Shown here piece by piece: positions 21,103 to 38,458 of a stretch of DNA of 38,458 bases. The stretch's first letter is position 1; each line of letters starts with the position of its first letter. The position numbers and the translations under genes were made by a program. Below the pieces are notes generated by a model. The model did not search any database. It was not told the origin of the DNA and saw nothing but the letters and a program-made list of their open reading frames with translations. Source of the stretch: Flavobacteriaceae bacterium (GTDB lineage: Bacteria > Bacteroidota > Bacteroidia > Flavobacteriales > Flavobacteriaceae); contig JABDLA010000091.1 in assembly GCA_013001965.1 (NCBI GenBank), positions 1 through 38,458 on the forward strand, given 5' to 3'.

Positions 21103-21117
21103 CTATTTATTTAGGAA

Positions 21118-21151
21118 CAAAAATAGAAAATAATTTAAGCGTGCTTATCAA
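21118..21151 (-). promoter_or_regulatory. Promoter candidate for ugd-uxs-wcaJ block
   Basis: Minus strand TTG (21151-21149), 23-nt spacer, TATTTTTG (21125-21118); 16 nt before the ugd ATG. Confidence 0.45.
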
Positions 21152-21214
21152 ATCGGCATTTAAATCAGAAATGAAATATTCTAAAGAAAATTACAGCTGA
21201 AGCATTTGGAGGTC

Positions 21215-22003
21215 CTATGTGAATTTTTCCGGTTCGAATTTACGGTTCGAATATTCCAAATTGTAGACAATTTCATTGTTTTCAATCTTAAGCCATGGCT
21301 GTAAACTTTGATTCTTTTCAATTACGAAAGCAAAAAGATTGCCTTGTTTTTTAAAGAAGAAAGTGAATATTGGAATTAGAAATTTCCCCAAATAACCTAC
21401 AACTCTTTTAAGCACATTTTTAGACATCGCCAATCTTTTGGTTGGAACGAGAAGACCGTAAAAAAAGTGAAACCTATGAATGTATTGTGGCATAAATGAA
21501 TTCACGGTTTTCCGTACTTCATTTTCTGTCCATTTATAAACATAATTTGGAATGTGTGAATTTCGCATCCCTCCATATTTTCCATCACTAAGCGCAACAG
21601 GCTCTAATTCATATGAAGGTGCCAGATTGAATTTGTTGGCCAATGTATTAAATAAGCTATCTCTGGATTCGAATACTCCAACGCCTTTTCTTGATACACG
21701 CAGCATTTCACAAAGTCCCTTATGCGGGGATGCGCAGTGGTGCAGCCCGGCATGAACAAAGACCCAATCGAACGTATTGTTGTCAAAGGATAAGTTCTCG
21801 GCGTCTTCTTTTTGCCATGCGAACGGTTCGTAATCCTTCACGCCACCATGATAGTCAAGATTAGTGATTGTGACATTCTTAAAGCCACAATTAAAAAATG
21901 TATCTCTATCTTTTTCGCCTCCGGCAATAACAAGAATGTTGTCATCAAGGGAAACGATGTTTCCGGACACAATTTTCTTCAATGTGTTTTGATAAAAATT
22001 CAT
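21215..22003 (-). CDS. Class I SAM-dependent methyltransferase (type 11-like)
   Basis: ILVIAGGEKDRDTFFNCGFKNVTITNLD, DAENLSFDNNTFDWVFVHAGLHHCASPHKGLCEMLRVSRKGVGVFE. Confidence 0.8.
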   Translation of the reverse strand: MNFYQNTLKKIVSGNIVSLDDNILVIAGGEKDRDTFFNCGFKNVTITNLDYHGGVKDYEPFAWQKEDAENLSFDNNTFDWVFVHAGLHHCASPHKGLCEMLRVSRKGVGVFESRDSLFNTLANKFNLAPSYELEPVALSDGKYGGMRNSHIPNYVYKWTENEVRKTVNSFMPQYIHRFHFFYGLLVPTKRLAMSKNVLKRVVGYLGKFLIPIFTFFFKKQGNLFAFVIEKNQSLQPWLKIENNEIVYNLEYSNRKFEPEKFT

Positions 22004-22119: not shown

Positions 22120-23346
22120 TCATTCAGACGTTTTTAGATCGAGGTTTTTAAAAGCAAAGAAATTGACCAAAAACGCAAATAAGATCAGGCCGTTCTGACG
22201 TTCTAATATATTTTCCGATAGCATTACAATTGTAAAGAATATCAAAATGCTAAAAAAAAGCCAATCTTGATTCCTATAAGCCAGTTTAAAATTATAACAC
22301 AGAAAAAACAGGAAAACCAGCAAGCCTGCCAGTCCTGTTTTCATGGTAATACTCAGGTATTGATTATGGGTGTTATATCGGTTTTCAAATAGGTAATACA
22401 AGTTCTCTTTATAACAGTTAAAAAGCGCTTCCTTGTCCCTGCCAATGCCATAACCGAATATTGGTTTTTCCATTATAAGATCAAGAGCACAGTCATAGAT
22501 CTGAAGTCGATTGTTTGTTGAGTTGGTTTCATTTCTGTGCGAATAGGTCTCCGGTTTGAATAGCTCGGAAATCCTTTTTTGATTCACCGGAATAAAAACA
22601 AAAATTGCGCTAATACCAATTAATCCTACCAATGCGAAAATTAGCACTTTTCGCTTTGCCTTAAAGCTCAATAACAGTAGAAAAAATATGCTCATCAGTA
22701 GTGCCCCGATCACCCCTCTTCGCGCAAGAAAAAATATGGTGAATAATAAAAATAAGGTCAGTAGCGCTACACCAAGTTTCTTGAAGGCATTGTTATTAGA
22801 GTTTTTAAAATATTCTATTGAAAAAAGAACCGACAAGCCCATTGGCATCGACAAATAAATGGGGTGATCATTTAACAGTGGCATTTTCCTTCCCAGCTGA
22901 GACATACAAAATTCATAAGTTGTAGTTCCGTTGAAATAGCCAAGGTGAGCAAAATAGATGAAGATCAAAATTGAGAATACCACAGAGGACAGAAAAAAAA
23001 CTTTAGCAAACAAGGATTCGATCTTCTTTGTAAACAATGATGGATAGCCCGAATGTAGTACGGAAAAAATAATTGGAATAAACAATAGTGACATTGCCAT
23101 TTCAAGGCGTTTGGGAGCATCGTCTGGGTGGAACACAAACAGTAGGCTGAAAAGATATGTGAGATACAATGACGTATTGATCAGAGCAGTTTTGCCGAAT
23201 TTTATTTTTCGTTCCTGAATTAAAATGAGTAGTGCCGCAAGCCCTAAGAGAATGACCAGATACCACCTTTGAATCGAGGGAACAAGCAAAAAGAGCCCAA
23301 AGGCCAGAATTGAGAAGACAGAAATTTTTTGTGCCGGTGTTTTCAA
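22120..23346 (-). CDS. O-antigen ligase / polymerase family membrane protein
   Basis: Polytopic, 408 aa, with Wzy_C-like loop RLQIYDCALDLIMEKPIFGYGIGRDKEALFNCYKENLYYLFENRYNTHNQYLSITMKTGLAGLL. Confidence 0.82.
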   Translation of the reverse strand: MKTPAQKISVFSILAFGLFLLVPSIQRWYLVILLGLAALLILIQERKIKFGKTALINTSLYLTYLFSLLFVFHPDDAPKRLEMAMSLLFIPIIFSVLHSGYPSLFTKKIESLFAKVFFLSSVVFSILIFIYFAHLGYFNGTTTYEFCMSQLGRKMPLLNDHPIYLSMPMGLSVLFSIEYFKNSNNNAFKKLGVALLTLFLLFTIFFLARRGVIGALLMSIFFLLLLSFKAKRKVLIFALVGLIGISAIFVFIPVNQKRISELFKPETYSHRNETNSTNNRLQIYDCALDLIMEKPIFGYGIGRDKEALFNCYKENLYYLFENRYNTHNQYLSITMKTGLAGLLVFLFFLCYNFKLAYRNQDWLFFSILIFFTIVMLSENILERQNGLILFAFLVNFFAFKNLDLKTSE

Positions 23347-23350
23347 TTCT

Positions 23351-24586
23351 TTATAAATTATTTAATTCATTCACAAATCCGTTTAATACGGTTTCTTTTG
23401 AATACCGGTCCATAATAAATTGTTTTGCCTTTCGGCCAAGTTCATCACCTAGCTCCTGGTCTGCCTGCAAGCCTTTAACAACATCTAAAATCGCCTGCAA
23501 CTGGTCGTTCTGAAAATAGTAGCCTCCCTGCGAATCTTCAAAAATTTGTCTCACCTCCGACTTCCTATTCCCGGTGATAATAGATGGTCGCCCGCTGCCC
23601 ATCATTCCTAATATCTTGGAGGGCATTACGGCATCAATGACCTCATCTTTTTGAAACAATATATGAAGATCGGCACTTGACAAAAGTAAGGGCAAATCTT
23701 CAAATGGTACAAGATTATAGTGTTTTGCCAAATGAAAGTCATCGAGCCTTTGCTTGACATTTTTTTGTTCAGCACCTTCGCCAACCACAATAACCTCAAC
23801 ATCTTTTAAGGGTTTTAATTCTTCAAGGAATGCAAAGAAAAAATCCCAATCTTGTTTGGCCCCAATATTTCCTGAATAAAGGATCTTAAAATTAGTTGAA
23901 TTTAGATACGGATGTTTTTCATTGAAATCCATATTGAATTTAGAAGTATCCAGCCAATTGGATAAAAAATACCCTTTTCTTCCCGTCTTTTCTCGTAGCT
24001 TATCCAGCATTCCATTGCTGATGGTACTCACTACATGCGCACGTCTAAGTAAAAAACGCTCCACCCAGAATAAAGGTTTTGATATCATGCTGTTCGTCTT
24101 ACTAAGCAATCCTGAATCTATAGCAGCATCAAATTCAAAATCCTGAATATGCACCCATAATTTGGCGCCATAGATGATTTTTAAGAACCAGCCCAGCATC
24201 ACCGATGACGTAAAGGGCACAATGGCTATAACGATATCTGGATTTGAAGGTTTAAACAGATTCAATAAACTACCCAATGTAAAGCTTGAAAGATGAATTA
24301 GGCGTTTTAAAAAACTCGGATTAGCCGGAACATACTGTTTAAATCGATATACCACAACCCCGTTAATGGTCTCCTTAAAATAGCTGCCCTTAGATCTGTA
24401 GGCCTCGCTGATCTTCCATTGTGGATAATACGGAAATCCGGTTATTACCGATACTTTGTAACCTCTTTCAACCAAATATTCAGCCTTTTGCGAAGAGTAT
24501 AGTCCGATAGCACTGTCTTCAGGCGAGTAATTTATACCAATAAGTGTGATGTTTTTATTCAAGGTCGTATTTGAAAACGGTTTCAA
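23351..24586 (-). CDS. Glycosyltransferase family 4 (WbuB-like)
   Basis: ITLIGINYSPEDSAIGLYSSQKAEYLVERGYKVSVITGFPYYPQW, LYSGNIGAKQDWDFFF, VMPSKILGMMGSGRPSIITG. Confidence 0.88.
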   Translation of the reverse strand: MKPFSNTTLNKNITLIGINYSPEDSAIGLYSSQKAEYLVERGYKVSVITGFPYYPQWKISEAYRSKGSYFKETINGVVVYRFKQYVPANPSFLKRLIHLSSFTLGSLLNLFKPSNPDIVIAIVPFTSSVMLGWFLKIIYGAKLWVHIQDFEFDAAIDSGLLSKTNSMISKPLFWVERFLLRRAHVVSTISNGMLDKLREKTGRKGYFLSNWLDTSKFNMDFNEKHPYLNSTNFKILYSGNIGAKQDWDFFFAFLEELKPLKDVEVIVVGEGAEQKNVKQRLDDFHLAKHYNLVPFEDLPLLLSSADLHILFQKDEVIDAVMPSKILGMMGSGRPSIITGNRKSEVRQIFEDSQGGYYFQNDQLQAILDVVKGLQADQELGDELGRKAKQFIMDRYSKETVLNGFVNELNNL

Positions 24587-25655
24587 GATTATTTATAAAG
24601 GCTTCGGTTGAAAAGTTCTTACTTGCGAATTTATAATTTTCGTATAGCATTGCGTTATGGTATTCCTGTTCGTTTCTAATTTTTTCAAGTTTTAAAACGA
24701 TGTCTTCCGGAGATTTTTTATCAATATATAAACCATTGACTTCATCGGTAAAAATATCAGAGATCCCAGCATGATCAGTTGTTAAAATCAGGTTTCCGGT
24801 AGACATGGCTTCCAACAATGAAATGGGCTGGCCTTCCATCAAATAATACGAGGGGAAAACAAATACATTCCCCCAAAGCAATAAGTCCTTTTTATCTTCC
24901 CCCCTCAATACGCCCATATAGTGCACATCCTTCAAAGCTTCAATGTAGGACTCTACTTTTGTCTTGGTCTTTATATCAATATGACCCGCGATTCTGGCCT
25001 CATATGGAATTCCTTTCTTCTCCATAATTTTCAAGGCTTCAAGTAAGTCCAAGATCCCTTTTTCTTCCATGAGGTTACTTAAATAGATTATATTTAAGGT
25101 CTTTAGTGACTTTTGCCTGATCATTTCCGCTGTATTCTGAACCAAGAATTCTTCTACAAAATTATAGACGACATGAATTTGGTTATTATTGAGAAAGGGG
25201 GTGAGATTTGGAATTAATGATTCTGACAACACGATGCCTTTATCAGCTTTTCCCAGGATAAATTTTGCAATACCTTTTTTTGAAGGCGAAAAATTTGAAT
25301 AGGATTTATGGAGATGATTTCCATGGATATGGATAATTATTCGTTTCATTGAAAGCTTAGCCAAAGCAATGAACAGCCCATATTTTAAAATCCCAAAAAA
25401 GGTCTGCCCGGGAGTGATATAAACGATATCTGTAAAGGCCACCTTATAACATTGCAGGTTGTGTTTTATGCTCTGAATTAATTTCCTGAACGAAAATGAG
25501 CCAACATTCTCATCGAAGAAATTCAACGAAGTGTTGACCCTTTTTACCTTAAAATCAGGCTTGCCGTTAAAACCCTCAAAAACAATCTTGTTTGATAGGC
25601 TATTTCCGGTGATTGGCTCAGGAAATGGCCCGATTAATAAAAGACGTTTTGGCAT
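24555..25655 (-). CDS. Glycosyltransferase family 4
   Basis: LLLIGPFPEPITGNSLSNKIVFEGF, NIIYLSNLMEEKGILDLLEAL, YYLMEGQPISLLEAMSTGNLILTTDHAGISDIF. Confidence 0.88.
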   Translation of the reverse strand: MPKRLLLIGPFPEPITGNSLSNKIVFEGFNGKPDFKVKRVNTSLNFFDENVGSFSFRKLIQSIKHNLQCYKVAFTDIVYITPGQTFFGILKYGLFIALAKLSMKRIIIHIHGNHLHKSYSNFSPSKKGIAKFILGKADKGIVLSESLIPNLTPFLNNNQIHVVYNFVEEFLVQNTAEMIRQKSLKTLNIIYLSNLMEEKGILDLLEALKIMEKKGIPYEARIAGHIDIKTKTKVESYIEALKDVHYMGVLRGEDKKDLLLWGNVFVFPSYYLMEGQPISLLEAMSTGNLILTTDHAGISDIFTDEVNGLYIDKKSPEDIVLKLEKIRNEQEYHNAMLYENYKFASKNFSTEAFINNLETVFKYDLE

Positions 25656-25658
25656 AAA

Positions 25659-26939
25659 TTACCCTTTTAATTTGTTTTTAATCCCCCTGAGAAAATAACT
25701 TCCTGACTTGTAGAAGAACCAGATAAAATAGGCATAGTAAATGTATCTAACTGCCGATCTTAAATAATATTCAAAGCTATAAAACAAAAATAGTGATAAT
25801 AATAGTACAAGAACAAATGAAATACCTCTTTGATTCGCTACCAAATAGTTTCGAATTATCCTTTCAAAGTGGGCAAAAATTAAGCCCAGGATCAAGAAAA
25901 ACAGGGAGGTGAAGGTGATTCCCATATTAAATACTTGTCCGTGCAATGTAAAAGGTGCGAATGGATTTAGTCGCAAGTCCGGGGCATATTTATACCATCC
26001 TATCATGCCTCCCGGCAGAGGATTGAGGCTGATATAGATAATGTACCAGTCCTGAGCGGCCTCATTTATAGTTCCTATGGTTGCGAAGAATCCAAAGATA
26101 AATGTATAATAGGTATTAAAGCCTATCGAATTTCTTATTCCAGATTCCGAATCAAAAATTGAGGCAAAATAGGGGATTAAGCCATGGTCATCCAAGGTTC
26201 GTAGAGACAATACAAAGGACATGAATATAAAGGCAAATATCAACTGAATGAAAAACCTGATTTTGTTTTTTAGCGTATTCCCCGAAGTTTGAAATACCAC
26301 CAAAAGATAGATCAACAGCAGTAAAAAGGTAACCCGGGATCCGGTACTCATGGTGAGAAGTAAAACAATGATGAAATACAGAACGCTTTTAAACCTGCTC
26401 TTTGAATACAAAAGGCCTAGAAAAATAGATACTAAAAACGAGAGGATTTTGGCGATTGAGATCAAGACCTTATAATCAAAATCAGGGATATATCGGCCTC
26501 TAATAAATATCCCTTTCCCATAGGTCAGGACATAACAAAATGTAATGATCATCACAAGTGCTGAAGCCGTACTTAACAAGTGTTTAGGCAGAATGTATTT
26601 TCGAAATAAGGTGTAATCCAGTTTGCTATTAAAAACCCGCTTGTTCTTTCGTTTGGACAAATCATAAAAAATTATACAACCCACCAAAAAACAAATATTG
26701 GCTAGCATATAAAATTTTAGGACATAAAGAAAACTCTCATTGGAGACCCTGTCTAGATTGTAAAAGGAAAACTTATCGTCATAGAAATAAAAATATAAGA
26801 CGGTAAGGATCAGGATTAAATAATTGAATATGAGGTAAATATAAATTGGACTTAATATCAAATACTTATAAATTCTTGTGACTATTCCTGTAAGGAACAA
26901 CATGAACAAGGCTATTGATATAAGTATGAAAAGTTCCAT
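25659..26939 (-). CDS. Oligosaccharide repeat-unit polymerase (Wzy-like)
   Basis: 426 aa polytopic protein with large loop ending NPLPGGMIGWYKYAPDLRLNPFAPFTLHGQVFNMG; sits between GT4 and sulfotransferase/flippase genes. Confidence 0.72.
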   Translation of the reverse strand: MELFILISIALFMLFLTGIVTRIYKYLILSPIYIYLIFNYLILILTVLYFYFYDDKFSFYNLDRVSNESFLYVLKFYMLANICFLVGCIIFYDLSKRKNKRVFNSKLDYTLFRKYILPKHLLSTASALVMIITFCYVLTYGKGIFIRGRYIPDFDYKVLISIAKILSFLVSIFLGLLYSKSRFKSVLYFIIVLLLTMSTGSRVTFLLLLIYLLVVFQTSGNTLKNKIRFFIQLIFAFIFMSFVLSLRTLDDHGLIPYFASIFDSESGIRNSIGFNTYYTFIFGFFATIGTINEAAQDWYIIYISLNPLPGGMIGWYKYAPDLRLNPFAPFTLHGQVFNMGITFTSLFFLILGLIFAHFERIIRNYLVANQRGISFVLVLLLSLFLFYSFEYYLRSAVRYIYYAYFIWFFYKSGSYFLRGIKNKLKG

Positions 26940-26953
26940 TTATAAGATTACAT

Positions 26954-27781
26954 TTACCATTGATCGTTTTTTTCGTAGCCCAGTTTTATCAACATTTTTC
27001 CGCCATATTTTTTAAAGACATCTTTGGCATTGTCGTTAAATTTATTCTTCCAATCTCCGGATATTCCTTTTCTTAAAAAACTACTGGTATCTTCCTCCCC
27101 CTTATTGCGTTGAGTTTGACTCTCAAAAGAATACTTATGAACCACTTCTTTCAGTTTATTTTCATCGATCTCTACATTAAAGAAGTCGGCGAATAGTTGA
27201 CGCAATGTCCCTTCGGTATCGTTTAAAAGGTCCTCATACTTTAACAGGTAGATATTAGAATTATTCTTGTCGTATTCATTATTCCATTGCGAATTAAAGG
27301 ACTCCCAATTCCCGGGAAAATTAAAATAATGACTTTTAGGTGGTGTATGTGTAAATGAATATTCGATATACTCCGGTAAATTGTTTGTTATGTCTTCATA
27401 ATTATCGAATTTCAGATTTTTCCGGGTATAGGTCACTGTTTTGGGGTCTAATTTATTCTTATTACTCCATATGAGTTGATGGTAATAAAAAGATACGCAC
27501 ACATCCCGACCATCTCTAACCAACCATAGTATTTTTTTATTTTTGTGAATGACGTATTTCGGTTGGTAATGGCTGTGATAAACCGATCGTCTTAATATAG
27601 GGAATCTATTTCTTGGAAAAGGAATGTCAAGATATGTTGCAACCAACTGTCCTAGCCATGAACCGCCTGATTTAGGGTATTCAACGATAAGTATTGAATC
27701 ATTTAAAAAGGTCAGGCTGTTTACAAATAATAAACGCGTTGCCTGTTCCAGTTTTCCCTTTATTGTTTTAAACAATATCAT
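26954..27781 (-). CDS. PAPS-dependent sulfotransferase domain protein
   Basis: 5'-PSB loop ILIVEYPKSGGSWLGQL, 3'-phosphate segment ILWLVRDGRDVCVSFYYHQ, C-terminal FLRKGISGDWKNKFN; matches the cytosolic-type sulfotransferase motif set. Confidence 0.9.
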   Translation of the reverse strand: MILFKTIKGKLEQATRLLFVNSLTFLNDSILIVEYPKSGGSWLGQLVATYLDIPFPRNRFPILRRSVYHSHYQPKYVIHKNKKILWLVRDGRDVCVSFYYHQLIWSNKNKLDPKTVTYTRKNLKFDNYEDITNNLPEYIEYSFTHTPPKSHYFNFPGNWESFNSQWNNEYDKNNSNIYLLKYEDLLNDTEGTLRQLFADFFNVEIDENKLKEVVHKYSFESQTQRNKGEEDTSSFLRKGISGDWKNKFNDNAKDVFKKYGGKMLIKLGYEKNDQW

Positions 27782-27788
27782 TTAATAA

Positions 27789-29090
27789 TTATACAATAAA
27801 AGAATTAATTTTTAAGGCTTTTTTAATATAAATATGAGATATGAAAAACATGCAGAGAAAGGCAAAACTTGTGGCAATCGCAGCCCCGTTAATGCCATAG
27901 GCCTGGATTAAAAAATAGTTCAACACCAAATTTAAAATCAGTGTTCCGAACATGATCCTGCTATAGGCTTTCTGATGTCCTGTCATTTGCAAAATATCAC
28001 TCACGGGGCCAAATAAGCTTATCGCTATTTTTCCCAAACAAAGCACCATTAATGCAAATATGCCTGTGAAATAGACTTCGCCAAGAAATCCAAGAACGGG
28101 TCGGTGAAAAATTAAGATCCCCAGAAAAATCAATAGCCCTGAATAAAATGTGGTTCGTACAGAAAACCGTATGTTCTTCTGTAATAAATTATAATCTTTT
28201 CTGTGAAATGAATCTGATATTTTCGGAGCGACAATCGAGTTAATCGCCTCATAACTAAAGGTGATGACAATGGCTATTTTGGTCACGATATCATAAATAC
28301 CAATATTAACTTCGGTCTCAAATATTCCTAATAAGATTTTATCAGACCATAGCAACAAAACATAAAAATAGGTGGAAGACATTAACGGAATGGTTTCACT
28401 TACATAGGTTCTGATGGTACTTATATTGGGCATCTTAACTTCTTCTTTTCTCAGTCTGAAAATAATCACACAAGACACTAAAAAAATGAGGGCTACGGCA
28501 TAAAAATGACTCTCCATAATCAAATTGTCTTCACTTACAATAAGCAGTGGAATTAACAAAAGCAGAACCAGGGTCACAAAAAATCTTGAAAAGAAAATAA
28601 AAAATGAATAGAGGCCATTCTGTCTTACACCTCGCAGTACGCCCGAATTGATCATTATAATCACCCAGAATGGTACAGAAAGAACTGTCCACTTCAGGTA
28701 ATTTGTAAACTGAGGTTTATTAAAGATCTCAGTTGCGATGTATTCAGCAAAGAAGTAAATGAGTGCAATAAGCGCACAGGAAAAAACAAAGGCGATGCCA
28801 ATGCTGATATAATAAAAGGAAAAACCAACAGCATTCGATTCATAGGCTGAGAACTTCTTCGTCAGGTGAATATCAAATCCCATCTTTCCGTAAACAACAA
28901 GAATCGAGAATACGGTTAAACTTAAAGCCACAAAGCCATAAACACTTTCGCCATATTGCTTAATAACGTAAAAGGAAAAGCCATATGCGATTAAAAAACC
29001 TAATATCCTAAAGATTAAAAAATGGCTGCTTTTAAAGAGAATTTCCCTGTAATCTTTATCTCGCGAAATTTTCTTTAACAATTTGTTCAT
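27789..29090 (-). CDS. Flippase, Wzx / MATE-like polysaccharide transporter
   Basis: 433 aa with about 12 TM segments; typical oligosaccharide flippase pattern (YGESVYGFVALSLTVFSILVVYGKMGFDIHLTKKF, ISLFGPVSDILQMTGHQKAYSRIM). Confidence 0.85.
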   Translation of the reverse strand: MNKLLKKISRDKDYREILFKSSHFLIFRILGFLIAYGFSFYVIKQYGESVYGFVALSLTVFSILVVYGKMGFDIHLTKKFSAYESNAVGFSFYYISIGIAFVFSCALIALIYFFAEYIATEIFNKPQFTNYLKWTVLSVPFWVIIMINSGVLRGVRQNGLYSFFIFFSRFFVTLVLLLLIPLLIVSEDNLIMESHFYAVALIFLVSCVIIFRLRKEEVKMPNISTIRTYVSETIPLMSSTYFYVLLLWSDKILLGIFETEVNIGIYDIVTKIAIVITFSYEAINSIVAPKISDSFHRKDYNLLQKNIRFSVRTTFYSGLLIFLGILIFHRPVLGFLGEVYFTGIFALMVLCLGKIAISLFGPVSDILQMTGHQKAYSRIMFGTLILNLVLNYFLIQAYGINGAAIATSFAFLCMFFISHIYIKKALKINSFIV

Positions 29091-29129
29091 CTAACATTAT
29101 CACTCCTTTATAAAACAGTGATTAGGGCA

Positions 29130-29654
29130 CTATTTGTATTTAGAGTATCTATTTATAATTCTTGCGTTTAAGCTTTCAGATGAACTTATGGTATCATTTG
29201 CAGCAATTAGAATAGATTTTGAATCTAGATGAAAATATTCGACTAAGGCCGAATCTTGGATGATAATCCTGTCATCATTAATATTTAAGACTATTTTTTC
29301 TAAATCTATAGCGCATTCGGCATCAAAAACAATTTCAAACTCATTTGGAATATTATATTCAGGCAAAATAAAAGTAAGTCTTTGTTTCATTTTTGGTCTG
29401 CCTGTAATTTTATTAGCTAAAACGGATTGTTCACCAAAATCATCTCGAAAAATTAATTTGGGCTGTATATCATTTTTTATAACACCATCAATATAAATCC
29501 TTAATTTATTATTAAGATCAGTCTGGTCAACAATTACATTTTCAATCGATTCTTTGGGGTTGTTTTCTACAGGAACTTCAGCATCTGTTTTTTTAGATTC
29601 CTTGCATGAAAGAACTATAATTAATAAGCTTAATAGTATTACTGTTTTTTTCAT
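29130..29654 (-). CDS. Small uncharacterised lipoprotein
   Basis: 174 aa with signal peptide and lipobox MKKTVILLSLLIIVLSCKES; no family recognised. Confidence 0.7.
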   Translation of the reverse strand: MKKTVILLSLLIIVLSCKESKKTDAEVPVENNPKESIENVIVDQTDLNNKLRIYIDGVIKNDIQPKLIFRDDFGEQSVLANKITGRPKMKQRLTFILPEYNIPNEFEIVFDAECAIDLEKIVLNINDDRIIIQDSALVEYFHLDSKSILIAANDTISSSESLNARIINRYSKYK

Positions 29655-29724
29655 ATAATTAATTTTATTATTTCATGTATGTTATACAAACCCTGGGGAA
29701 AGTATTAATAATTTTCTCAATAAA

Positions 29725-30978
29725 TTAAACAATCATGCCGGCCGCAACAGTCTCATTAGTTGTGTCATCTATTAATATAATACTCCCAGTGGTTCTGTTT
29801 TCTCTATACGAATCGATCATTAATGGCTTAGTGGTGCGAATTTTTACTTTTGAAATATCGTTCATCCGCAATTCCTTATCCTCAACATTTCTTTTAAATG
29901 TATTAATGTCGAACTTATAAACCACTTCCTTTATCATGGCTTTTTGCTCATTTGTTGTATGTCGAATGCTATATTTTGCACGCGGCCTTGACGGATTGTC
30001 ATGCAGCCAGCACAGCATCATTTCAAGATCTTGAGTTGCTTCAGGTTTATTGTTCGATCGAACAATCATATCGCCTCGGCTAATATCGATATCATCTTCT
30101 AATGCCATCGAAATGGACATGGGTGCATAGGCTTCTTTCAGCTCCTCTTCGTAGGTATCGATGCTTTTTATTATTGAAGTAAATCCCGAAGGAAGCACCA
30201 TGACCTCATCTCCAACTCTGAATATGCCACTTGAAATTCGTCCGGCATAACCTCTATAATCACGATGTGAATCATTTTGTGGTCGTAATACCGTCTGAAC
30301 CGGAAAACGTGCATCAATCTTATTGATGTCACTGCTTATGTGCATAGTTTCCAAAGTGTGTAACAAAGGGGCACCCTGGTACCAATTCATGTTGGTCGAT
30401 CGGTTCACAACATTGTCTCCATCCAAAGCACTTATAGGAATGAATCGTATGTCCTTTACCAACAGCTTTGATGAAAATTCTTCAAACTGATCAATTACTT
30501 TACTGTAGGCGTGCTCTTCATAATCAACCAGATCCATTTTATTGATACAAACAATAATATGTGGAATTTGCAATAAGGAAGCGATAAAGGCATGACGTCT
30601 TGTTTGTTCAATAACACCATATCTCGCATCAACTAAAATAATTGCTGCGTTGGCCGTTGAAGCTCCGGTGACCATGTTTCTGGTATACTGAATATGCCCA
30701 GGTGTATCGGCTATAATAAATTTGCGTTTGGGTGTAGTAAAGTATCTGTAAGCAACATCAATGGTGATCCCTTGTTCCCGTTCATCGCGCAGGCCGTCGG
30801 TAAAAAGTGCAAGATCAACTCCTTCGTGGCCCTTTTTCTTGCTCGTACTTTCTATGGCCTGCAATTGATCTTCAAATATCGACTTGGAATCGTACAATAG
30901 GCGGCCTATTAGGGTGCTTTTCCCGTCGTCAACACTTCCGGCTGTTGTAAATCTTAATAATTGGTTATTATCCAGCAT
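29725..30978 (-). CDS. cysN: Sulfate adenylyltransferase subunit 1 (GTPase)
   Basis: GTPase motifs AGSVDDGKSTLIGRLLYDSK, ADTPGHIQYTRNMVTGAS, CINKMDLVDY; start set at MLDNNQLLRF (30978), not 31104. Confidence 0.95.
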   Translation of the reverse strand: MLDNNQLLRFTTAGSVDDGKSTLIGRLLYDSKSIFEDQLQAIESTSKKKGHEGVDLALFTDGLRDEREQGITIDVAYRYFTTPKRKFIIADTPGHIQYTRNMVTGASTANAAIILVDARYGVIEQTRRHAFIASLLQIPHIIVCINKMDLVDYEEHAYSKVIDQFEEFSSKLLVKDIRFIPISALDGDNVVNRSTNMNWYQGAPLLHTLETMHISSDINKIDARFPVQTVLRPQNDSHRDYRGYAGRISSGIFRVGDEVMVLPSGFTSIIKSIDTYEEELKEAYAPMSISMALEDDIDISRGDMIVRSNNKPEATQDLEMMLCWLHDNPSRPRAKYSIRHTTNEQKAMIKEVVYKFDINTFKRNVEDKELRMNDISKVKIRTTKPLMIDSYRENRTTGSIILIDDTTNETVAAGMIV

Positions 30979-30997
30979 TCTATTTTTTCTAAATTTT

Positions 30998-31903
30998 CTA
31001 AAAATAACCTTGGCGTTTACGGTCTTCCATTGCGGTCTCTGAACGTTTATCGTCGCTTCTGTTGCCGCGCTCTGTTTGACGCATGGCTGAGACCTCCTGA
31101 GCAATTTTTGTTACAGTATCGGCCTCTGATTCAATACCGCCTGTAATAGTGATATCCCCCAAGGTTCTAAAACGTACTTTTTTGGTGGTTATTTCCTCAT
31201 TCTCTTCAAGAACCAGAAACTCCGAATATGGGATCCAGGAATTATTGCGCCAAACCACTTTTCGCTCATGCGCATAATACAGTGATGGAATTTCTATGTT
31301 CTCACGTTTGATATAATTCCAAACATCCATTTCTGTCCAGTTACTAATAGGGAAAACCCTAAAATGTTCACCTTCAAAATGCTTTCCATTAAACAAATTC
31401 CATAGTTCAGGCCTTTGATTTTTCGGGTCCCATTGTCCAAAATCATCCCGGTGCGAAAAAAACCGTTCTTTGGCTCTTGCTTTTTCTTCATCACGTCTCC
31501 CGCCACCAATTGCACAATCAACTTTGTATTTTTCAATAGCATCCAAAAGCGTTGTTATCTGAAGTGAGTTTCGGGTTGCATTTTTTCCTTTTTCCTCCGC
31601 AACACGGCCGTCATCAATTGAATCCTGAACAGATCCAACGATCAAATTGACGCCCAATTCAGAAATAAGTTTATCTCTGAAATCAATGGTTTCAGGAAAA
31701 TTATGCCCAGTATCGACATGCATTAAAGCAAATGGAATCCTTGACGGGTAAAAGGCCTTTCTCGCCAAGTGCGTTACTACAATGGAATCTTTCCCTCCTG
31801 AAAATAAAATAACAGGATTCTGAAATTGTGCCCATACCTCACGTAATATGAAGACCGCTTCACTTTCTAATTCATCTAAGTAGTTTAAGTAATATTTACT
31901 CAT
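30998..31903 (-). CDS. cysD: Sulfate adenylyltransferase subunit 2
   Basis: PP-loop FSGGKDSIVVTHLARKAF, AIGGGRRDEEKARAKERFFSHRD, C-terminal RSETAMEDRKRQGYF. Confidence 0.97.
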   Translation of the reverse strand: MSKYYLNYLDELESEAVFILREVWAQFQNPVILFSGGKDSIVVTHLARKAFYPSRIPFALMHVDTGHNFPETIDFRDKLISELGVNLIVGSVQDSIDDGRVAEEKGKNATRNSLQITTLLDAIEKYKVDCAIGGGRRDEEKARAKERFFSHRDDFGQWDPKNQRPELWNLFNGKHFEGEHFRVFPISNWTEMDVWNYIKRENIEIPSLYYAHERKVVWRNNSWIPYSEFLVLEENEEITTKKVRFRTLGDITITGGIESEADTVTKIAQEVSAMRQTERGNRSDDKRSETAMEDRKRQGYF

Positions 31904-32522
31904 TTTTGAGGTTTAATCTTGGTTTGATATATGCGATAATCCTATCTACCGCCTGATCCACTGATTCTTTTTCCGTTTTAATTTCAATATCTGGATTATC
32001 AGGAGCTTCATATGGCGATGAAATCCCGGTCATATCCTTGATCAATCCCGCTCTGGCCTTTTCATATAAGCCTTTGACATCCCGTCGTTCACATTCGGCT
32101 AAGCTGGTGTTGACAAAAATTTCAACAAAGTTAACATCTTTGACAATATCGCGTATATTATCTCTGTCTTTTTTATAGGGCGATACAAAGGACGCAATCA
32201 CCACTAATCCGGCATCAATCATTAGATTCGCAACCTCGGCAATGCGCCTGATGTTTTCTGTACGGTCCTCAGCTGAAAAAGAAAGGTCCTTATTGATTCC
32301 ATTACGAACATTGTCACCATCAAGTGCATACGTTTTTATGTTGAGGGCATGCAACTCTTGTTCCAGCCGGTTGGCAATGGTCGATTTCCCCGATCCCGAT
32401 AGGCCGGTAAACCAGATCAATAATGAATTATGAGTGTTTGATTTTCTTCTGTCTGTTGCAGATACTTTATATGTATGCGGCTTGATATTCTCTTGCATGC
32501 TCATTTTAACTTCTCTAAACAA
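31896..32522 (-). CDS. cysC: Adenylylsulfate kinase
   Basis: IWFTGLSGSGKSTIANRLEQELH, YALDGDNVRNGINKDLSFSAEDRTENIRRIAEVANLM, ISSPYEAPDNPDIEI. An in-frame upstream Met gives MFREVKMSM..., so the start may be at the internal Met. Confidence 0.95.
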   Translation of the reverse strand: MFREVKMSMQENIKPHTYKVSATDRRKSNTHNSLLIWFTGLSGSGKSTIANRLEQELHALNIKTYALDGDNVRNGINKDLSFSAEDRTENIRRIAEVANLMIDAGLVVIASFVSPYKKDRDNIRDIVKDVNFVEIFVNTSLAECERRDVKGLYEKARAGLIKDMTGISSPYEAPDNPDIEIKTEKESVDQAVDRIIAYIKPRLNLKNE

Positions 32523-32531
32523 TCGCTTTGC

Positions 32532-32552
32532 ATATAATCCGTCAGATTATAT
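32532..32552. promoter_or_regulatory. Perfect dyad just upstream of cysC
   Basis: ATATAATC-CGTCA-GATTATAT, 8-bp arms and 5-nt spacer, about 10 bp upstream of the cysC ATG. Confidence 0.4.
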
Positions 32553-32661
32553 ACTGTTTTTTAGAGGGATGAATTTTGCAAATTTCGTAAATTATTTGCC
32601 GAACTGCAATATATATCGCTATTTCATGCTTTTCAAATAATCAATACTACCGCTTGCTTTT

Positions 32662-33468
32662 CTATTCTTTTGGTTTTACCAGAAAATACGGGTTAAGAAG
32701 ATTTTGTTTGTTATAGACCAGCGGTTCACCGGTCTCTTGTGAAATCACGTCAATCCCAACAGCATTACAAATGGCCTGTCCGGCAGCAGTATCCCATTCC
32801 CAGGTGGGTGCGAATCTTGGGTACATATCAGCCTGCCCATCGGCAACAAGACAGAATTTAAGTGAGCTCCCCTTTGAAACGATTTCAACTTGTAATCCTT
32901 TTGATTTTAGATCGTCAACAAAATTTAAGGTGTCCTCATTCATGTGTGATCGGCTGCCAACAACCTGAACACTATTGGTATCCGTTTCTTTTGGTAACAA
33001 TGGTTTCGATAACGCATAAACCTTATCAATAGATGAGGCATGTGAATCAACTTCCGCCTTAAATGCTTTGTTCTCTTCAACATTGGCGTAATAAAGTGTC
33101 TTTTCAGCCGGCACATAAATTACCCCACAAATTGGTTGCCCTTGTCGCACCAGCGCAATATTGACCGTAAATTCTCCATTGCGTTTTATAAATTCCTTGG
33201 TCCCATCAACCGGATCGACAACCCAGCAACTGTTCCAATGTTTCCTTTTTGAAAAGTCGATCTGCTTATTCTCCTCGCTGATGACCGGGATCTCAGTTAA
33301 AGCTAAATGACGATTGATTATGGTATTTGCTTTGAGGTCAGCTTCTGTTAGTGGTGATTGATCATCTTTGTATTCAATTTCAAAGGCCTGTTTATAAACA
33401 GACATAATTGCTTCGCCAGCTTCAAGACTCGCTAGTATGGCTTTTTCAAGTAGATCAATTGTTTTCAA
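32662..33468 (-). CDS. cysQ: 3'(2'),5'-bisphosphate nucleotidase (PAP phosphatase)
   Basis: Inositol-monophosphatase-fold motifs VISEENKQIDF, WVVDPVDGTKEFIKRNGEFTVNIALV, APTWEWDTAAGQAICNAVG. Confidence 0.94.
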   Translation of the reverse strand: MKTIDLLEKAILASLEAGEAIMSVYKQAFEIEYKDDQSPLTEADLKANTIINRHLALTEIPVISEENKQIDFSKRKHWNSCWVVDPVDGTKEFIKRNGEFTVNIALVRQGQPICGVIYVPAEKTLYYANVEENKAFKAEVDSHASSIDKVYALSKPLLPKETDTNSVQVVGSRSHMNEDTLNFVDDLKSKGLQVEIVSKGSSLKFCLVADGQADMYPRFAPTWEWDTAAGQAICNAVGIDVISQETGEPLVYNKQNLLNPYFLVKPKE

Positions 33469-34504
33469 TATACCAATTATATAGAGTTCTTATTCCTTGG
33501 TCCAACTCAACCTTGTGCTTCCATCCCAATCCATTCAACTTAGTGACATCCGTAAGTTTTCTCAAAGTCCCATCCGGCTTTTCAGAATTAAATTCCAATT
33601 GTCCATTATATCCTATTAAGGATTTTATTTTTTCGGCCAGTTCTCGTATGGAAATATCTTGTCCTGTGCCAATATTAATATGTGTATTCCGAATTTCTGT
33701 CTGATTCTTTGAATAGGTGTCTGTAAAATCTCTTTGCTCCATAATGAACACACAAGCATCTGCCATATCTTTTGACCATAGAAACTCCCGTCTTGGATTT
33801 CCCGTGCCCCAGATCTCAACACTATTTGCACCTACTCCAAAAGATTTCAGGTAGGAATTAGCTTCTTCAATAGTCGCTGATTTAGTATCTTCTAAAATTT
33901 CCTTTTCATTGCCGTCTTCAAGCAGCTTCGCCAGATGAATTTTTCTGATCAATGCAGGGAGAACATGCGATTTCTCCAGGTCGAAATTATCATTTGGCCC
34001 ATACAGGTTCGTAGGCATGACCGAAATAAAATTGGTTCCGTACTGCAAATTATAGCTTTCGCACATTTTGATCCCTGCAATTTTTGCAATCGCATAAGGT
34101 TCATTGGTATACTCTAGCGTATCGGTAAGCAAATAGTCCTCCTTCATAGGTTGCGGTGAATTCTTTGGATAGATACAAGTACTTCCAAGAAATAACAACT
34201 TTTTCACCCCATTGACATAACTTTGATGAATGACATTGTTCTGAATCATGAGGTTTTCATAGATGAAATCGGCGCGATACACATTATTGGCTATTATGCC
34301 TCCTACTTTTGCAGCAGCTAAAAACACATAGTCCGGTTTAGCAGATTGAAAAAAATTGGTCACTGCTAACTGATCTGAAAGATCCAGTTCCTGATGTGTT
34401 CTTGTTATCAGGTTCCGATATCCTTTTGACTGTAGATTTTCAAGAATGGCGCTTCCAACAAGACCGCGATGCCCTGCTACATATATTTTTGAATCTTTTT
34501 GCAT
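33455..34504 (-). CDS. fcl: GDP-L-fucose synthase
   Basis: YVAGHRGLVGSAILENL, AAKVGGIIANNVYRADFIYENLMIQNNVIHQSY, FLGSTCIYPKNSPQPMKEDYLL. Confidence 0.96.
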   Translation of the reverse strand: MQKDSKIYVAGHRGLVGSAILENLQSKGYRNLITRTHQELDLSDQLAVTNFFQSAKPDYVFLAAAKVGGIIANNVYRADFIYENLMIQNNVIHQSYVNGVKKLLFLGSTCIYPKNSPQPMKEDYLLTDTLEYTNEPYAIAKIAGIKMCESYNLQYGTNFISVMPTNLYGPNDNFDLEKSHVLPALIRKIHLAKLLEDGNEKEILEDTKSATIEEANSYLKSFGVGANSVEIWGTGNPRREFLWSKDMADACVFIMEQRDFTDTYSKNQTEIRNTHINIGTGQDISIRELAEKIKSLIGYNGQLEFNSEKPDGTLRKLTDVTKLNGLGWKHKVELDQGIRTLYNWYIENN

Positions 34505-34509
34505 GCCTG

Positions 34510-35628
34510 CTATTCGAAATAATTTTTAATTCTATAGCCTCCTTGCTGAAGAAAATCTTGCTTTTTCATCAATTTAAGATCGCTCGACATCATATCTTCA
34601 ACGAGAGCTTCAAGATCGTATTCCGGTACCCAGCCCAATTTTTCTCTGGCCTTGGTCGCATCGCCAACAAGCAGTTCAACTTCAGTTGGGCGATAGTATT
34701 TTTCATCTACCGCGACCACTTCCTTGCCAATTTCAAGTTGATAATCAGGGTTTGAACAGGATTTGATATAGCCTTTTTCATTTGCTCCCTCTCCCTTGAA
34801 TTCCAATTCAACACCAATATGATCAAATGACATTCTTACGAAATCACGGACTGATTTCGATTTCCCTGTCGCAATGACCCAATCTTCGGCTTCATCTGCC
34901 TGGAGGATCATCCACATCATTCTTATATAATCCTTTGCATGGCCCCAGTCCCGTTGTGCGTTTAGATTCCCCAGATACATTTTGTCCTGTAAGCCAATCG
35001 CTATCCTCGAGGTGGCGCGCGTAATCTTTCTGGTTACGAAAGTCTCTCCTCTTATGGGAGATTCATGATTGAAAAGTATGCCGTTGCAGGCGAAGATTCC
35101 ATAGGCTTCTCTGTAATTCACCGTAATCCAATAGGCATACATTTTGGCAACTGCGTAGGGGCTTCTTGGGTAAAAGGGTGTTGATTCGGTTTGTGGTATT
35201 TCCTGAACTTTACCATATAATTCTGAAGTCGACGCCTGATATATTCGCGTTTTCTTTTCTAGTCCTAGAATTCTGACGGCTTCAAGTATACGAAGCGTTC
35301 CGAGGCCATCAGCATTCGCTGTATATTCTGGTGTTTCAAACGACACATGAACATGGCTCATCGCAGCCAGGTTATAGATCTCCTGGGGTTGGACTTCCTG
35401 GATGATCCGAATGAGGTTGGTACTATCGGTCAGATCACCATAATGGAGAAAGAAGTTTCGATTCTCAACATGAGGGTCCTGGTATAAATGATCAATGCGA
35501 TCGGTATTGAAAAGGGAGGACCTTCTTTTAACACCGTGAACTTCATATCCCTTTTTTAAAAGGAATTCGCTTAAATATGCGCCATCCTGTCCTGTGACTC
35601 CGGTAATTAAGGCTACCTTTTTTTTCAT
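34510..35628 (-). CDS. gmd: GDP-mannose 4,6-dehydratase
   Basis: [99 protein letters not shown]. Confidence 0.97.
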
Positions 35629-35736: not shown

Positions 35737-36603
35737 TCATTGCTTCGAAAGCATCTTTTTCATGAGTTTATCAAGGCTATTTTCCCAGCTATCTATACGA
35801 TCATATATCGATTCTATTTCTTTAGTACTGAGAACACTGTTGGCTGGCCGTTTTGCCCTTGAAGGAAAATTGGAAACACCTTTGATCCTTGAACCATCAT
35901 AAGACGGAAAATAGGAGGCAATACGTTTAGCAAATTCAAACCAATTGGTGCTGTTCGTTGTCCCAAAATGATAGATGCCAAAGTTCAAGTCACCACTTAT
36001 AATTATAAAAAAAATAAATCGGGCGAGTTCATAACAACTCGTCGGTGATCCCAATTGGGTGTCAACAATATTCAGGTCTTCATTCATTTCAAGCTTCCTA
36101 ATAATGGTTTTGAGAAAATTCTTTCCATGGTCTGAATATAGCCAGGATGCCCGAATAATATAATACTTCTCTAAGTGTTCTTTGATCTTGAGTTCTCCTT
36201 CGAGCTTTGATGCACCATAAACATTTATCGGATTAGGTTGGTCGTGTATGGTATAGGCTTCATTCTTAGTGCCATCAAACACATAATCTGTAGAGAGATG
36301 GATCAAAACGACTTTGTTTCTTTGACATGCCTCGGCCAAATATCCTACGGCTTCAGCATTAATTAAAAAGGCCGTTTCAGGATCATCTTCGGCACCATCG
36401 ACATTGGTGTAAGCGGCACAATTTATACAATAGTCAAAACTATGATCCTTGAAGTAATTGCCCAAGTTATTTTGATCGGTTATATCCAGTTCATCTTTCG
36501 AAACAAAAATAAAATGAATCGCTTTTTGATGGCTCTTGTAAAGCCCTTTAATGCATTGGGCCAGTTGGCCATCGGCTCCGGTAACAATTACTTTTAAACT
36601 CAT
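35737..36603 (-). CDS. rfbD: dTDP-4-dehydrorhamnose reductase
   Basis: VIVTGADGQLAQCIKGL, CAAYTNVDGAEDDPETAFLINAEAVGYLA, HLSTDYVFDGTKNEAYTIHDQPNPINVYGASKLEGE. Confidence 0.95.
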   Translation of the reverse strand: MSLKVIVTGADGQLAQCIKGLYKSHQKAIHFIFVSKDELDITDQNNLGNYFKDHSFDYCINCAAYTNVDGAEDDPETAFLINAEAVGYLAEACQRNKVVLIHLSTDYVFDGTKNEAYTIHDQPNPINVYGASKLEGELKIKEHLEKYYIIRASWLYSDHGKNFLKTIIRKLEMNEDLNIVDTQLGSPTSCYELARFIFFIIISGDLNFGIYHFGTTNSTNWFEFAKRIASYFPSYDGSRIKGVSNFPSRAKRPANSVLSTKEIESIYDRIDSWENSLDKLMKKMLSKQ

Positions 36604-37145
36604 TTGAATGCATTTTCAAATGTAGGCAGCTGCTTGTCTTTTTCAGAAAGAATGATTTGGTTTTCAGGGTAATTCCAATCAATGTTCAGTGTGCTATCAT
36701 TGTAAATGATCCCCGACTCAGCTTCTTTATTATAGTAATTGTCGCATTTATAGCTGAATATTGTATTGTCTTCCATGACAAGGAAACCATGAGCAAAACC
36801 CCTTGGAATAAAAAGTTGTTTTTGAGACAGTTCATCCAGTTCAATTGAAAAACTTTGACCGAATGTTGGTGAATCCTTTCTGATATCGACGCATACATCC
36901 AGGACTTTTCCTTTAATGACGCGTACAAGTTTAGCTTGTGCAAATTCTCCTTTTTGATAATGCAATCCCCGAAGTACACCAGATGAGGACTTTGACTGAT
37001 TGTCTTGTATAAAAGAGGTTTCGAAGCCAAGGGATGTTGAAAAATCTCTGTGGTTATAACTTTCAAAAAAATAACCTCGGTCATCTCCAAAGATTTTTGG
37101 AGTGATCACAAAACAGCCTTTTAAATGGGTTTCTTCAATTAACAT
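36600..37145 (-). CDS. rfbC: dTDP-4-dehydrorhamnose 3,5-epimerase
   Basis: DDRGYFFESYN, FIQDNQSKSSSGVLRGLHYQKGEFAQAKLVRVIKGKVLDVCVDIRKDSPTFG, IPRGFAHGFLV. Confidence 0.97.
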   Translation of the reverse strand: MLIEETHLKGCFVITPKIFGDDRGYFFESYNHRDFSTSLGFETSFIQDNQSKSSSGVLRGLHYQKGEFAQAKLVRVIKGKVLDVCVDIRKDSPTFGQSFSIELDELSQKQLFIPRGFAHGFLVMEDNTIFSYKCDNYYNKEAESGIIYNDSTLNIDWNYPENQIILSEKDKQLPTFENAFK

Positions 37146-37146
37146 A

Positions 37147-38004
37147 TTATTTCAATTGTTGAAGATATTTTCCGTAACCGCTTTTCAGTAAGGGTTCTGC
37201 CAGAGCAAGAAGCTGGTCTTTATCGATATAGCCCATTTTATATGCCATTTCTTCAATACATCCAATTTTAAGGCCTTGACGTTCCTCAATGACCTGGACA
37301 AATTGAGAAGCCTGCATGAGAGAATTAAATGTTCCTGTATCCAGCCAGGCCGTTCCTTTATCTAGGATCTGAACTTTTAACTGCCCTTTGTTCAAATAGG
37401 CTTTATTGACATCGGTAATTTCAAGTTCTCCTCTAGCACTCGGCTTAATGTTTTTCGCGATTTCGACAACCTGATTGTCATAGAAATATATTCCCGGAAC
37501 CGCATAATTTGATTTCGGCTGTTTCGGTTTCTCTTCAATGGAAATCGCCTTATTTTGGACGTCAAATTCAACAACACCATAGCGTTGAGGATCCTGCACA
37601 TGATACGCAAAAATTACACCGCCCTGATCTGTTATACAGGACTGAAGTGTTTGCTCAAGTCCGGACCCATAAAATATGTTGTCACCAAGAATCAAGGCCA
37701 CTTTATCATCTCCAATGAAGGGCTCGCCAATAATAAAAGCCTCAGCCAGGCCATTGGGTTGCTCCTGTATTGCATATTTAAAGCTACATCCAAATTTTTT
37801 GCCGTCTCCCAGGAGCTCCTTGAATCTTGGGGTATCTTTTTCTGTGGAAATTATCAGGATTTCGTTGATCCCAGCCGACATTAAAGTCGTTAAGGGGTAG
37901 TAGATCATTGGTTTATCGTAAACAGGCAACAGTTGCTTACTCACCACTTCGGTAAGGGGATGCAATCGCGTGCCTGATCCTCCTGCAAGTATAATTCCTT
38001 TCAT
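37147..38004 (-). CDS. rfbA: Glucose-1-phosphate thymidylyltransferase
   Basis: [63 protein letters not shown]. Confidence 0.97.
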
Positions 38005-38005
38005 T

Positions 38006-38458
38006 TTAGCCCTTATATTTATTTATGTACCAGCTTATGGTCTTTCTAATTCCGGATTCGAAATTTTCATCGGCCTCCCACTTCAATTCCTCTGTTATTT
38101 TTGAAGCATCGATAGCATATCGATAATCATGCCCGGGACGATCGGTGACAAAGCTGATTTGATCTTTATATGAATTATCCTTTGGTTGTATGTCGTCTAA
38201 AATCTCACAAATGGTATTAGCAATATAAAGATTATTCCGTTCGTTATTACCGCCAATGTTATAGGTTTCACCCGGTCTTCCGTTTTCAAAAGCTAATTGA
38301 ATCCCTTTACAATGGTCCAACACATAGAGCCAATCCCGAACATTAAGCCCATCGCCATAGATTGGGATATTCTCCCCGTTTAGTGCCTTTTGAATGATGG
38401 TTGGAATTAGTTTTTCGTCATGCTGCTTCGGCCCATAATTATTGCTGCAATTCGTGGT
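38006..38458 (-). CDS. rfbB: dTDP-glucose 4,6-dehydratase (partial, runs off right edge)
   Basis: Reading frame continues past the ORF-track start to the edge: [57 protein letters not shown]...; followed by rfbA. Confidence 0.95.

Follow-up and report, generated by a model that had tools for sequence, protein, structure and literature searches.

A putative sulfated-polysaccharide locus with PAPS synthesis genes and a sulfotransferase inside a Wzx/Wzy cluster of a Flavobacteriaceae bacterium

Gene content of the locus

The window analyzed here is a stretch of 38,458 nucleotides from a Flavobacteriaceae bacterium. Profile searches of its ORFs place the sulfation genes at 26954-35628, all on the minus strand and embedded in a Wzx/Wzy polysaccharide locus with the following features:

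17442..22003, minus: methyltransferase (PF08241), UDP-sugar dehydrogenase (PF03721/PF00984/PF03720), epimerase (PF01370/PF16363), and WcaJ-type initiating sugar-phosphate transferase (PF02397)
22120..23346, minus: Wzy_C-family polymerase or O-antigen ligase (PF04932, 2.8e-24)
23351..25655, minus: two glycosyltransferases (PF00534, PF13579)
25659..26939, minus: Wzy-type polymerase (PF14296, 3.2e-7)
26954..27781, minus: predicted PAPS-dependent sulfotransferase, 275 aa (PF00685, 8.7e-24)
27789..29090, minus: Wzx-type flippase, 10 hydrophobic segments (PF01943, 6.8e-13)
29130..29654, minus: small lipoprotein of an undescribed family, lipobox Cys17 (no Pfam or NCBIfam match)
29725..30978, minus: CysN, ATP sulfurylase large subunit (GTPase), 417 aa (TIGR02034, 559 bits)
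30998..31903, minus: CysD, ATP sulfurylase small subunit, 301 aa (TIGR02039, 419 bits)
31896..32522, minus: CysC, APS kinase (TIGR00455, 251 bits)
32523..32661, minus: 139-bp gap between cysQ and cysC; the DUF2061 gene, in tandem in most relatives, is absent
32662..33468, minus: CysQ, 3'(2'),5'-bisphosphate nucleotidase for PAP clearance (TIGR01331, 265 bits)
33455..34504, minus: GDP-L-fucose synthase-like (Fcl) epimerase (NF047922, 457 bits, under the cut-off of 500)
34510..35628, minus: GDP-mannose 4,6-dehydratase, Gmd (TIGR01472, 603 bits)
35737..38458, minus: rmlD, rmlC, rmlA, and rmlB for dTDP-L-rhamnose (PF04321, PF00908, PF00483, PF16363); rmlB is cut at the window end

Family matches well above cut-off and intact motifs confirm the sulfation genes that the first-pass annotation had named on one strand, but its list omitted the lipoprotein gene at 29130-29654. 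The glycosyltransferase, wzy, sulfotransferase, wzx, and lipoprotein genes follow one another on a single strand with intergenic gaps of 3-39 bp, and the sulfotransferase gene, separated from wzx by 7 bp and from wzy by 14 bp, shares its run with the assembly and export set (Wzx, Wzy, glycosyltransferases, and initiating transferase). The genes cysN, cysD, and cysC are also tightly spaced. The listed ORF at 29725-31104 runs into cysD; the fitting cysN start is the ATG at 30978, which gives a protein of 417 aa, equal in length to that of relatives. Promoter and terminator scans of the window yielded scores not above those of shuffled controls, and operon boundaries are therefore left unclaimed.

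An iterative profile groups the lipoprotein with nine lipoproteins at comparable positions, and in relatives the family adjoins cysN/wzx. Residues K3 and C17 are invariant. The AF2 model (pLDDT 71) gave a weak beta-sandwich match; a lipoxygenase PLAT-like domain was considered, but the structural match (TM 0.40, rmsd 7) is not strong enough to support a functional assignment.

Sulfotransferase and sulfate activation enzymes

The product of 26954-27781 contains both PAPS-binding motifs, 5'-PSB and 3'-PB, as the first-pass annotation had recognized. The motifs YPKSGG, RDGRD, HSHY, and RKGISGDWKN are intact and invariant across eight homologues at 40-59% identity. Moreover, the best Foldseek matches of its AF2 model (pLDDT 84) are all SULT enzymes (E 1.7e-7). 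Together with the PF00685 match, this marks the protein as a predicted PAPS-dependent sulfotransferase of SULT fold. It has no TM segment, suggesting that it is cytosolic, where PAPS is produced.

The activation enzymes likewise retain their motifs: GSVDDGKST, DTPGH, and NKMD in CysN, SGGKDS in CysD, GLSGSGKS in CysC, and DPVDGT, read from the sequence, in CysQ. As CysD and CysH both match PF01507, the assignment of the window protein as CysH was considered and excluded by TIGR02039, its length of 301 aa, and its tree position. Comparing synteny in relatives, a check proposed at the outset, showed that Psychroserpens algicola and a Winogradskyella MAG share a nearly identical gene order with the locus. 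CysN is 87% and the Fcl-like protein 77% identical to the P. algicola counterparts, and Wzy is 48% identical to a gene of the Winogradskyella locus.

We then considered the rest of the host genome through family searches of its assembly, which is 86.7% complete. No second CysD or CysC was found in it, and neither CysH nor sulfite reductase was found in the window or in this assembly, where the only PAPS_reductase-domain match is the window CysD and NIR_SIR has 0 matches. The earlier observation that the window lacks reductive genes thus extends to the genome, with 13% missing, so an assimilation operon could sit in the missing part. The closest relative located, G008 (99% complete), presents the same picture as the host assembly, CysH and sulfite reductase again going undetected. 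Sulfotransferase-type sequences also occur at two other places in the host genome, one a second sulfotransferase in a different glycan locus (L053) and the other a third, sulfotransferase-like domain within a fusion protein (L054), suggesting that the window module probably represents the whole PAPS supply of the genome. The description of the module as dedicated to the window polysaccharide was therefore too narrow.

Co-variation across genomes and rival explanations

The first-pass annotation had named one outcome as counting against sulfation, namely that these cysNDC genes be the only copy and co-vary with assimilation but not with the sulfotransferase. They are indeed the only sulfate-activation copy found in the genome, but no assimilation genes were found alongside. 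In a survey of 121 Flavobacteriaceae genera, with PF00685 as the only sulfotransferase family searched, CysC is present in 52 of the 53 sulfotransferase genomes (both 52, CysC only 11, sulfotransferase only 1, neither 57; p=4.8e-22), and PF00685 had no match in 11 of the 63 CysC genera. Sulfite reductase showed no association with CysC in the same genera, being present in 29 CysC genera and absent from 34 (29/34/29/29, p=0.72). Of the 52 genomes having both, 31 carry a sulfotransferase no more than 15 kb from CysC, against 1.3 expected. The wider phylum repeats this pattern, with 31/17/3/97 for CysC and the sulfotransferase (p=2e-16) and p=0.22 for CysC and sulfite reductase. At both levels the outcome favors sulfation and supports the proposal that the module supplies sulfate for a polysaccharide, which would then carry it. 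The expectation that such loci are uncommon does not hold in Flavobacteriaceae, where CysC occurs in roughly half of the genera sampled.

The CysD tree is split by a 100/100 branch into two groups. One comprises the sampled assimilation operons (cysH-cysDN-SiR without cysC); the other comprises polysaccharide loci and includes the window CysD. The tracking and proximity of CysC and the sulfotransferase, the phylum pattern, and the separate CysD clade suggest that the most likely role of the module is to produce PAPS for sulfating a lipid-linked repeat unit that has yet to be flipped.

Alternatively, cysDNC could serve cysteine synthesis in the first place and lie beside the polysaccharide locus by chance, with CysC feeding a PAPS reductase. 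CysNDC and CysQ are textbook assimilation enzymes, the host assembly is incomplete, and a Kordia genome paper interpreted cysC and an additional cysND as the genes that complete the assimilation pathway (PMC7477175). However, the failure to find CysH and sulfite reductase in the 86.7% complete host assembly and in G008, the independence of CysC from sulfite reductase, and the distinct, cysC-free CysD clade of the sampled assimilation operons make this explanation very improbable, and the survey argues against the Kordia reading.

A genuine PAPS module whose sulfotransferase acts on a lipid, secondary metabolite, or core sugar rather than on the main polymer would fit the resemblance of the fold to cytosolic SULTs with small-molecule substrates. 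It would also fit relatives in which the sulfotransferase and the module occupy separate sites. In two Robiginitalea, the same sulfotransferase lies in a polysaccharide locus with cys genes absent from the fetched flanks, and in one of these (R. myxolifaciens, G193) CysC is at a different genomic site. The few base pairs to wzx and wzy argue against such a target, as do the wzx, polymerase-type, and glycosyltransferase neighbors of homologues in Psychroserpens, Winogradskyella, Robiginitalea, and Saprospiraceae, and we regard it as quite unlikely. Decay of the locus, leaving it non-functional for sulfation in this strain, is hinted at by the loss of DUF2061, which is present in 93 of 98 CysD genomes and was not found by family search in the 86.7% complete host assembly. 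However, four other genomes (G086, G023, G095, and G101) are also CysD-positive and DUF2061-negative, and no enzyme is truncated or has lost its motifs. Identity to G008 is 92% for CysD, and identity to P. algicola ranges over 57-87% for the sulfotransferase and cys genes, so that decay is scarcely credible.

Proposed pathway and known systems

We favor, with a probability of roughly 0.83, a locus that builds and exports a sulfated polysaccharide, the cysDNC/CysQ/sulfotransferase module sulfating the lipid-linked repeat unit. From family and motif matches we infer that CysD/CysN would convert sulfate and ATP to APS, which CysC would phosphorylate to PAPS. The cytosolic SULT-fold enzyme would transfer sulfate from PAPS to a hydroxyl of the lipid-linked unit, with rhamnose, fucose, and a uronic acid as candidate acceptors, and CysQ would clear the by-product PAP. 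After flipping and polymerization by Wzx/Wzy, the sulfated unit would end up in a capsule, an O-antigen, or a released polymer. PAPS from the module would probably be shared with the other sulfotransferase(s) of the genome.

For the family as a whole, we give even odds to two sulfate-activation lines with distinct CysDN paralogues. The reductive line, DUF2061-cysH-cysDN-SiR, would use APS directly, mostly via CysH without iron-sulfur ligands; the sulfation line, cysQ-tandem DUF2061-cysC-cysDN, would be devoted to PAPS production for surface glycans. The presence of APS kinase in a genome would thereby mark glycan sulfation, about half of the genera would make their own sulfated polymers, and the new lipoprotein family beside cysN/wzx would help handle them. 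Work on marine flavobacteria has mainly concerned their breakdown of sulfated polysaccharides from algae. Should about half of the genera indeed produce sulfated glycans, bacteria may contribute part of the marine sulfated polysaccharide pool, and cultured strains would allow tests of the part that sulfation plays in phage resistance, adhesion, or self-protection. CysC beside a sulfotransferase offers a simple marker for finding producers.

Rhizobial NodP/NodQ/NodH similarly pair a PAPS sulfotransferase with a dedicated ATP sulfurylase/APS kinase next to it; their target, however, is a small lipo-chitooligosaccharide signal, without Wzx/Wzy. No nod-type genes were found among the scanned window genes. 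Our literature search found no papers that link sulfated polysaccharide and sulfotransferase to Bacteroidota/Bacteroidetes, and the titles matched with Flavobacteriaceae do not point to a sulfation system. One report describes sulfated-polymer producers as limited among bacteria (PMC13125312).

Two clusters with cysNDC and a sulfotransferase belong to capsules whose sulfation was proven by NMR (PMC11641403, PMC11766843). Vibrio sp. KMM 8419 resembles the window in that its CPS/O-antigen locus, which includes a rhamnose operon, carries sulfotransferases together with cysC, cysN, and cysD, and its sulfated rhamnose was demonstrated by NMR; however, its capsule is exported by an ABC transporter (Kps), its cys genes are described as second copies, and the available part of the paper mentions neither CysQ nor a lipoprotein of the window type (PMC11641403). 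Cobetia marina KMM 1449 has a PAPS set with cysQ and a sulfotransferase in its CPS cluster and sulfated rhamnose in its published structure, whereas this gammaproteobacterium differs in its bifunctional cysN/cysC, sulfate permease, and Kps export (PMC11766843). The Synechocystis synechan (xss) cluster also combines polysaccharide genes with sulfotransferases, and comparable cyanobacterial systems use Wzx/Wzy or ABC export; unlike the window, it has the cyanobacterial regulators XssQRS, and the available part of the paper mentions no PAPS genes in the cluster (PMC13125312). In Pontiella sulfatireligans, a sulfated exopolymer was measured and a putative sulfated-GAG cluster places a sulfotransferase in a GT-rich EPS cluster, but this Verrucomicrobiota anaerobe also assimilates sulfate, and the legend to the cluster names no PAPS genes (PMC7356697). 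Sulfated-polysaccharide loci of this type are thus already known from Vibrio, Cobetia, and Synechocystis; less expected are their breadth in Flavobacteriaceae, their split from assimilation, and the undescribed lipoprotein family beside cysN/wzx.

Organization and conservation of the probable sulfation locus

The window spans the entire contig of a draft genome (2.74 Mb, 202 contigs, 86.7% complete). The main genes of the polysaccharide locus all lie on the minus strand, and three plus-strand genes diverge from it:

13862-17435, plus: a 439-aa protein without a Pfam match, a UDP-GlcNAc 2-epimerase, and a glycosyltransferase
17442-38458, minus, in order: rmlBACD, gmd, fcl-like, cysQ, cysC, cysD, cysN, lipoprotein, wzx, sulfotransferase, wzy, two glycosyltransferases, Wzy_C-family, methyltransferase, UDP-sugar dehydrogenase, epimerase, and WcaJ-type initiating transferase

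Intergenic gaps in the locus are mostly -32 to 39 bp, with wider gaps of 70 to 139 bp between cysN and the lipoprotein gene, cysC and cysQ, and gmd and rmlD and on either side of the methyltransferase gene. The start of CysN was placed at 30978; the longer ORF listed for it runs into cysD. As the first-pass annotation had claimed, cysD, cysN, cysC, cysQ, and the sulfotransferase gene share one strand. Every catalytic motif of the sulfate-handling enzymes is intact. The PAPS-binding motifs that the first-pass annotation recognized in the sulfotransferase are borne out by a match to PF00685 (8.7e-24) and by PKSGG, RDGRD, HxHY, and RKGxxGDWKN, which are common to eight homologues. The predicted structure (pLDDT 84) resembles SULT enzymes with bound PAP or PAPS (best E 1.7e-7, ~20% identity). 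No membrane segment was found in this protein, which would place sulfate transfer in the cytosol, ahead of flipping.

Gene order is largely retained in Psychroserpens algicola, where gmd, fcl, cysQ, DUF2061, cysC, cysD, cysN, lipoprotein, sulfotransferase, wzx, and Wzy_C are followed by two glycosyltransferases, UDP-sugar dehydrogenase, epimerase, and initiating transferase, with a few genes interspersed. CysN/CysD there are 87% identical to those of the window, and the sulfotransferase is 57% identical. The locus of a Winogradskyella MAG also has wzy (48%) and the lipoprotein (39%) in common with the window, and homologues of the 439-aa protein and the divergent glycosyltransferase border it on the opposite strand. 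Across loci, the activation core is retained and the sulfotransferases, flippases, and glycosyltransferases are variable, as expected if the polymer differs from strain to strain.

Homologues of the window sulfotransferase are patchy, occurring in 22 of 301 family genomes. Among named genomes, the carriers are Psychroserpens, Robiginitalea, Dokdonia, Winogradskyella, and Saprospiraceae, along with a scattering of other phyla, Verrucomicrobiota and Planctomycetota among them, and the gene frequently sits amid polysaccharide genes; this distribution looks like horizontal exchange. One close homologue (60% identity) in a Flavobacteriaceae MAG (L144, 10001-10818) is broken into two frames of 121 and 108 aa.

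Assimilation or sulfation

PAPS from this module could instead feed assimilatory sulfate reduction, in which case cysNDC should co-vary with assimilation and not with the sulfotransferase. We found neither CysH nor sulfite reductase by family searches of the rest of the 86.7% complete genome, in which the window CysD is the sole PAPS_reductase-domain protein. The nearest relative found (99% complete, CysD 92% identical) likewise yielded no CysH or sulfite reductase, and CysD is again its only such protein.

The survey that followed took one genome from each of 121 genera of the family and looked for CysC, sulfite reductase, and PF00685 (the only sulfotransferase family counted). With p-values that ignore phylogeny, CysC tracks the sulfotransferase (both in 52 genomes, CysC alone in 11, the sulfotransferase alone in 1, and neither in 57; p = 4.8e-22) and not sulfite reductase (29, 34, 29, and 29; p = 0.72). 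Among 148 Bacteroidota-wide genomes, a sample with several genomes per genus and p-values of the same kind, the corresponding results were 31/17/3/97 (p = 2e-16) and p = 0.22, and outside the family they were p = 3e-15 and 0.18. Physical linkage is free of the phylogeny and sampling weakness: in at least 31 of the 52 genomes, CysC has a sulfotransferase no more than 15 kb away, versus 1.3 expected at random.

The window's genome holds a second free-standing sulfotransferase in a separate glycan locus (contig C127, 3381-4376, plus), with glycosyltransferases and two flippase-like genes as neighbors; the PAPS supply therefore probably serves more than one acceptor. On contig C90 (2920-5445, minus), an 841-aa fusion carries a C-terminal sulfotransferase domain together with a type I phosphodiesterase/sulfatase-like domain and TPRs. 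Sulfotransferase matches within ORFs of ~840 to 890 aa occur in more than 10 CysC-positive family genomes.

Two lines of sulfate activation

In 20-kb and 8-kb stretches taken from relatives for comparison, the usual module of polysaccharide loci is cysQ, tandem DUF2061, cysC, cysD, and cysN, whereas the reductive operon comprises a single DUF2061, cysH, cysD, cysN, and a ~700-aa sulfite reductase, without cysC. In a tree of 51 CysD proteins, one 100/100 branch parts 39 sulfation-module from 12 reductive-operon sequences, and the window CysD falls on the sulfation side. Reduced modules, with cysQ and cysC alone beside other genes (L087, L104, L106, L109, and L111), occur in genomes that also hold a reductive cysDN operon (L107, L103, L105, L108, and L110), so that APS from the reductive line may be shared with them.

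Most reductive-operon CysH proteins checked (L093-L112 and L002-L011) lack the iron-sulfur cysteine motif. Such CysH occurs also in genomes without detectable CysC, which suggests, at the sequence level, an iron-sulfur-free APS reductase in Flavobacteriaceae. Since moss APR-B demonstrates that APS reduction is possible without an iron-sulfur cluster (PMC2275785), we infer that CysC is dispensable for assimilation in family members with the reductive operon, contrary to the published reading of Kordia genomes (PMC7477175).

Accessory proteins and known loci

DUF2061 is present in 93 of 98 CysD genomes (p = 9e-17); the reductive operon has one copy, and the sulfation module usually has a tandem copy. 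It is absent from the window and its genome, one of the five exceptions, and a 139-bp gap (32523-32661) occupies its expected position. Our guess is a membrane role in sulfate handling. The lipoprotein (29130-29654) has the lipobox LSC and no family match in Pfam or NCBIfam. A profile built from three post-cysN lipoproteins of relatives picked it up before inclusion (E 4e-5), and the final profile has eleven members, one of them weak. In 8 of the 9 measurable loci having a relative of it, a PF00685 sulfotransferase lies within 9 kb. Its model is a beta-sandwich of moderate confidence with faint likeness to PLAT-like domains. We speculate that the lipoprotein might help hold or export the polymer.

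Our search of the open-access literature, with subscription papers outside its coverage, found no report of such loci in Flavobacteriaceae. Sulfated-polysaccharide loci are already known, synechan being the cyanobacterial example (PMC13125312), and the window locus therefore joins a known type, to which the breadth across the family, the separate CysDN lines, and the lipoprotein add interest.
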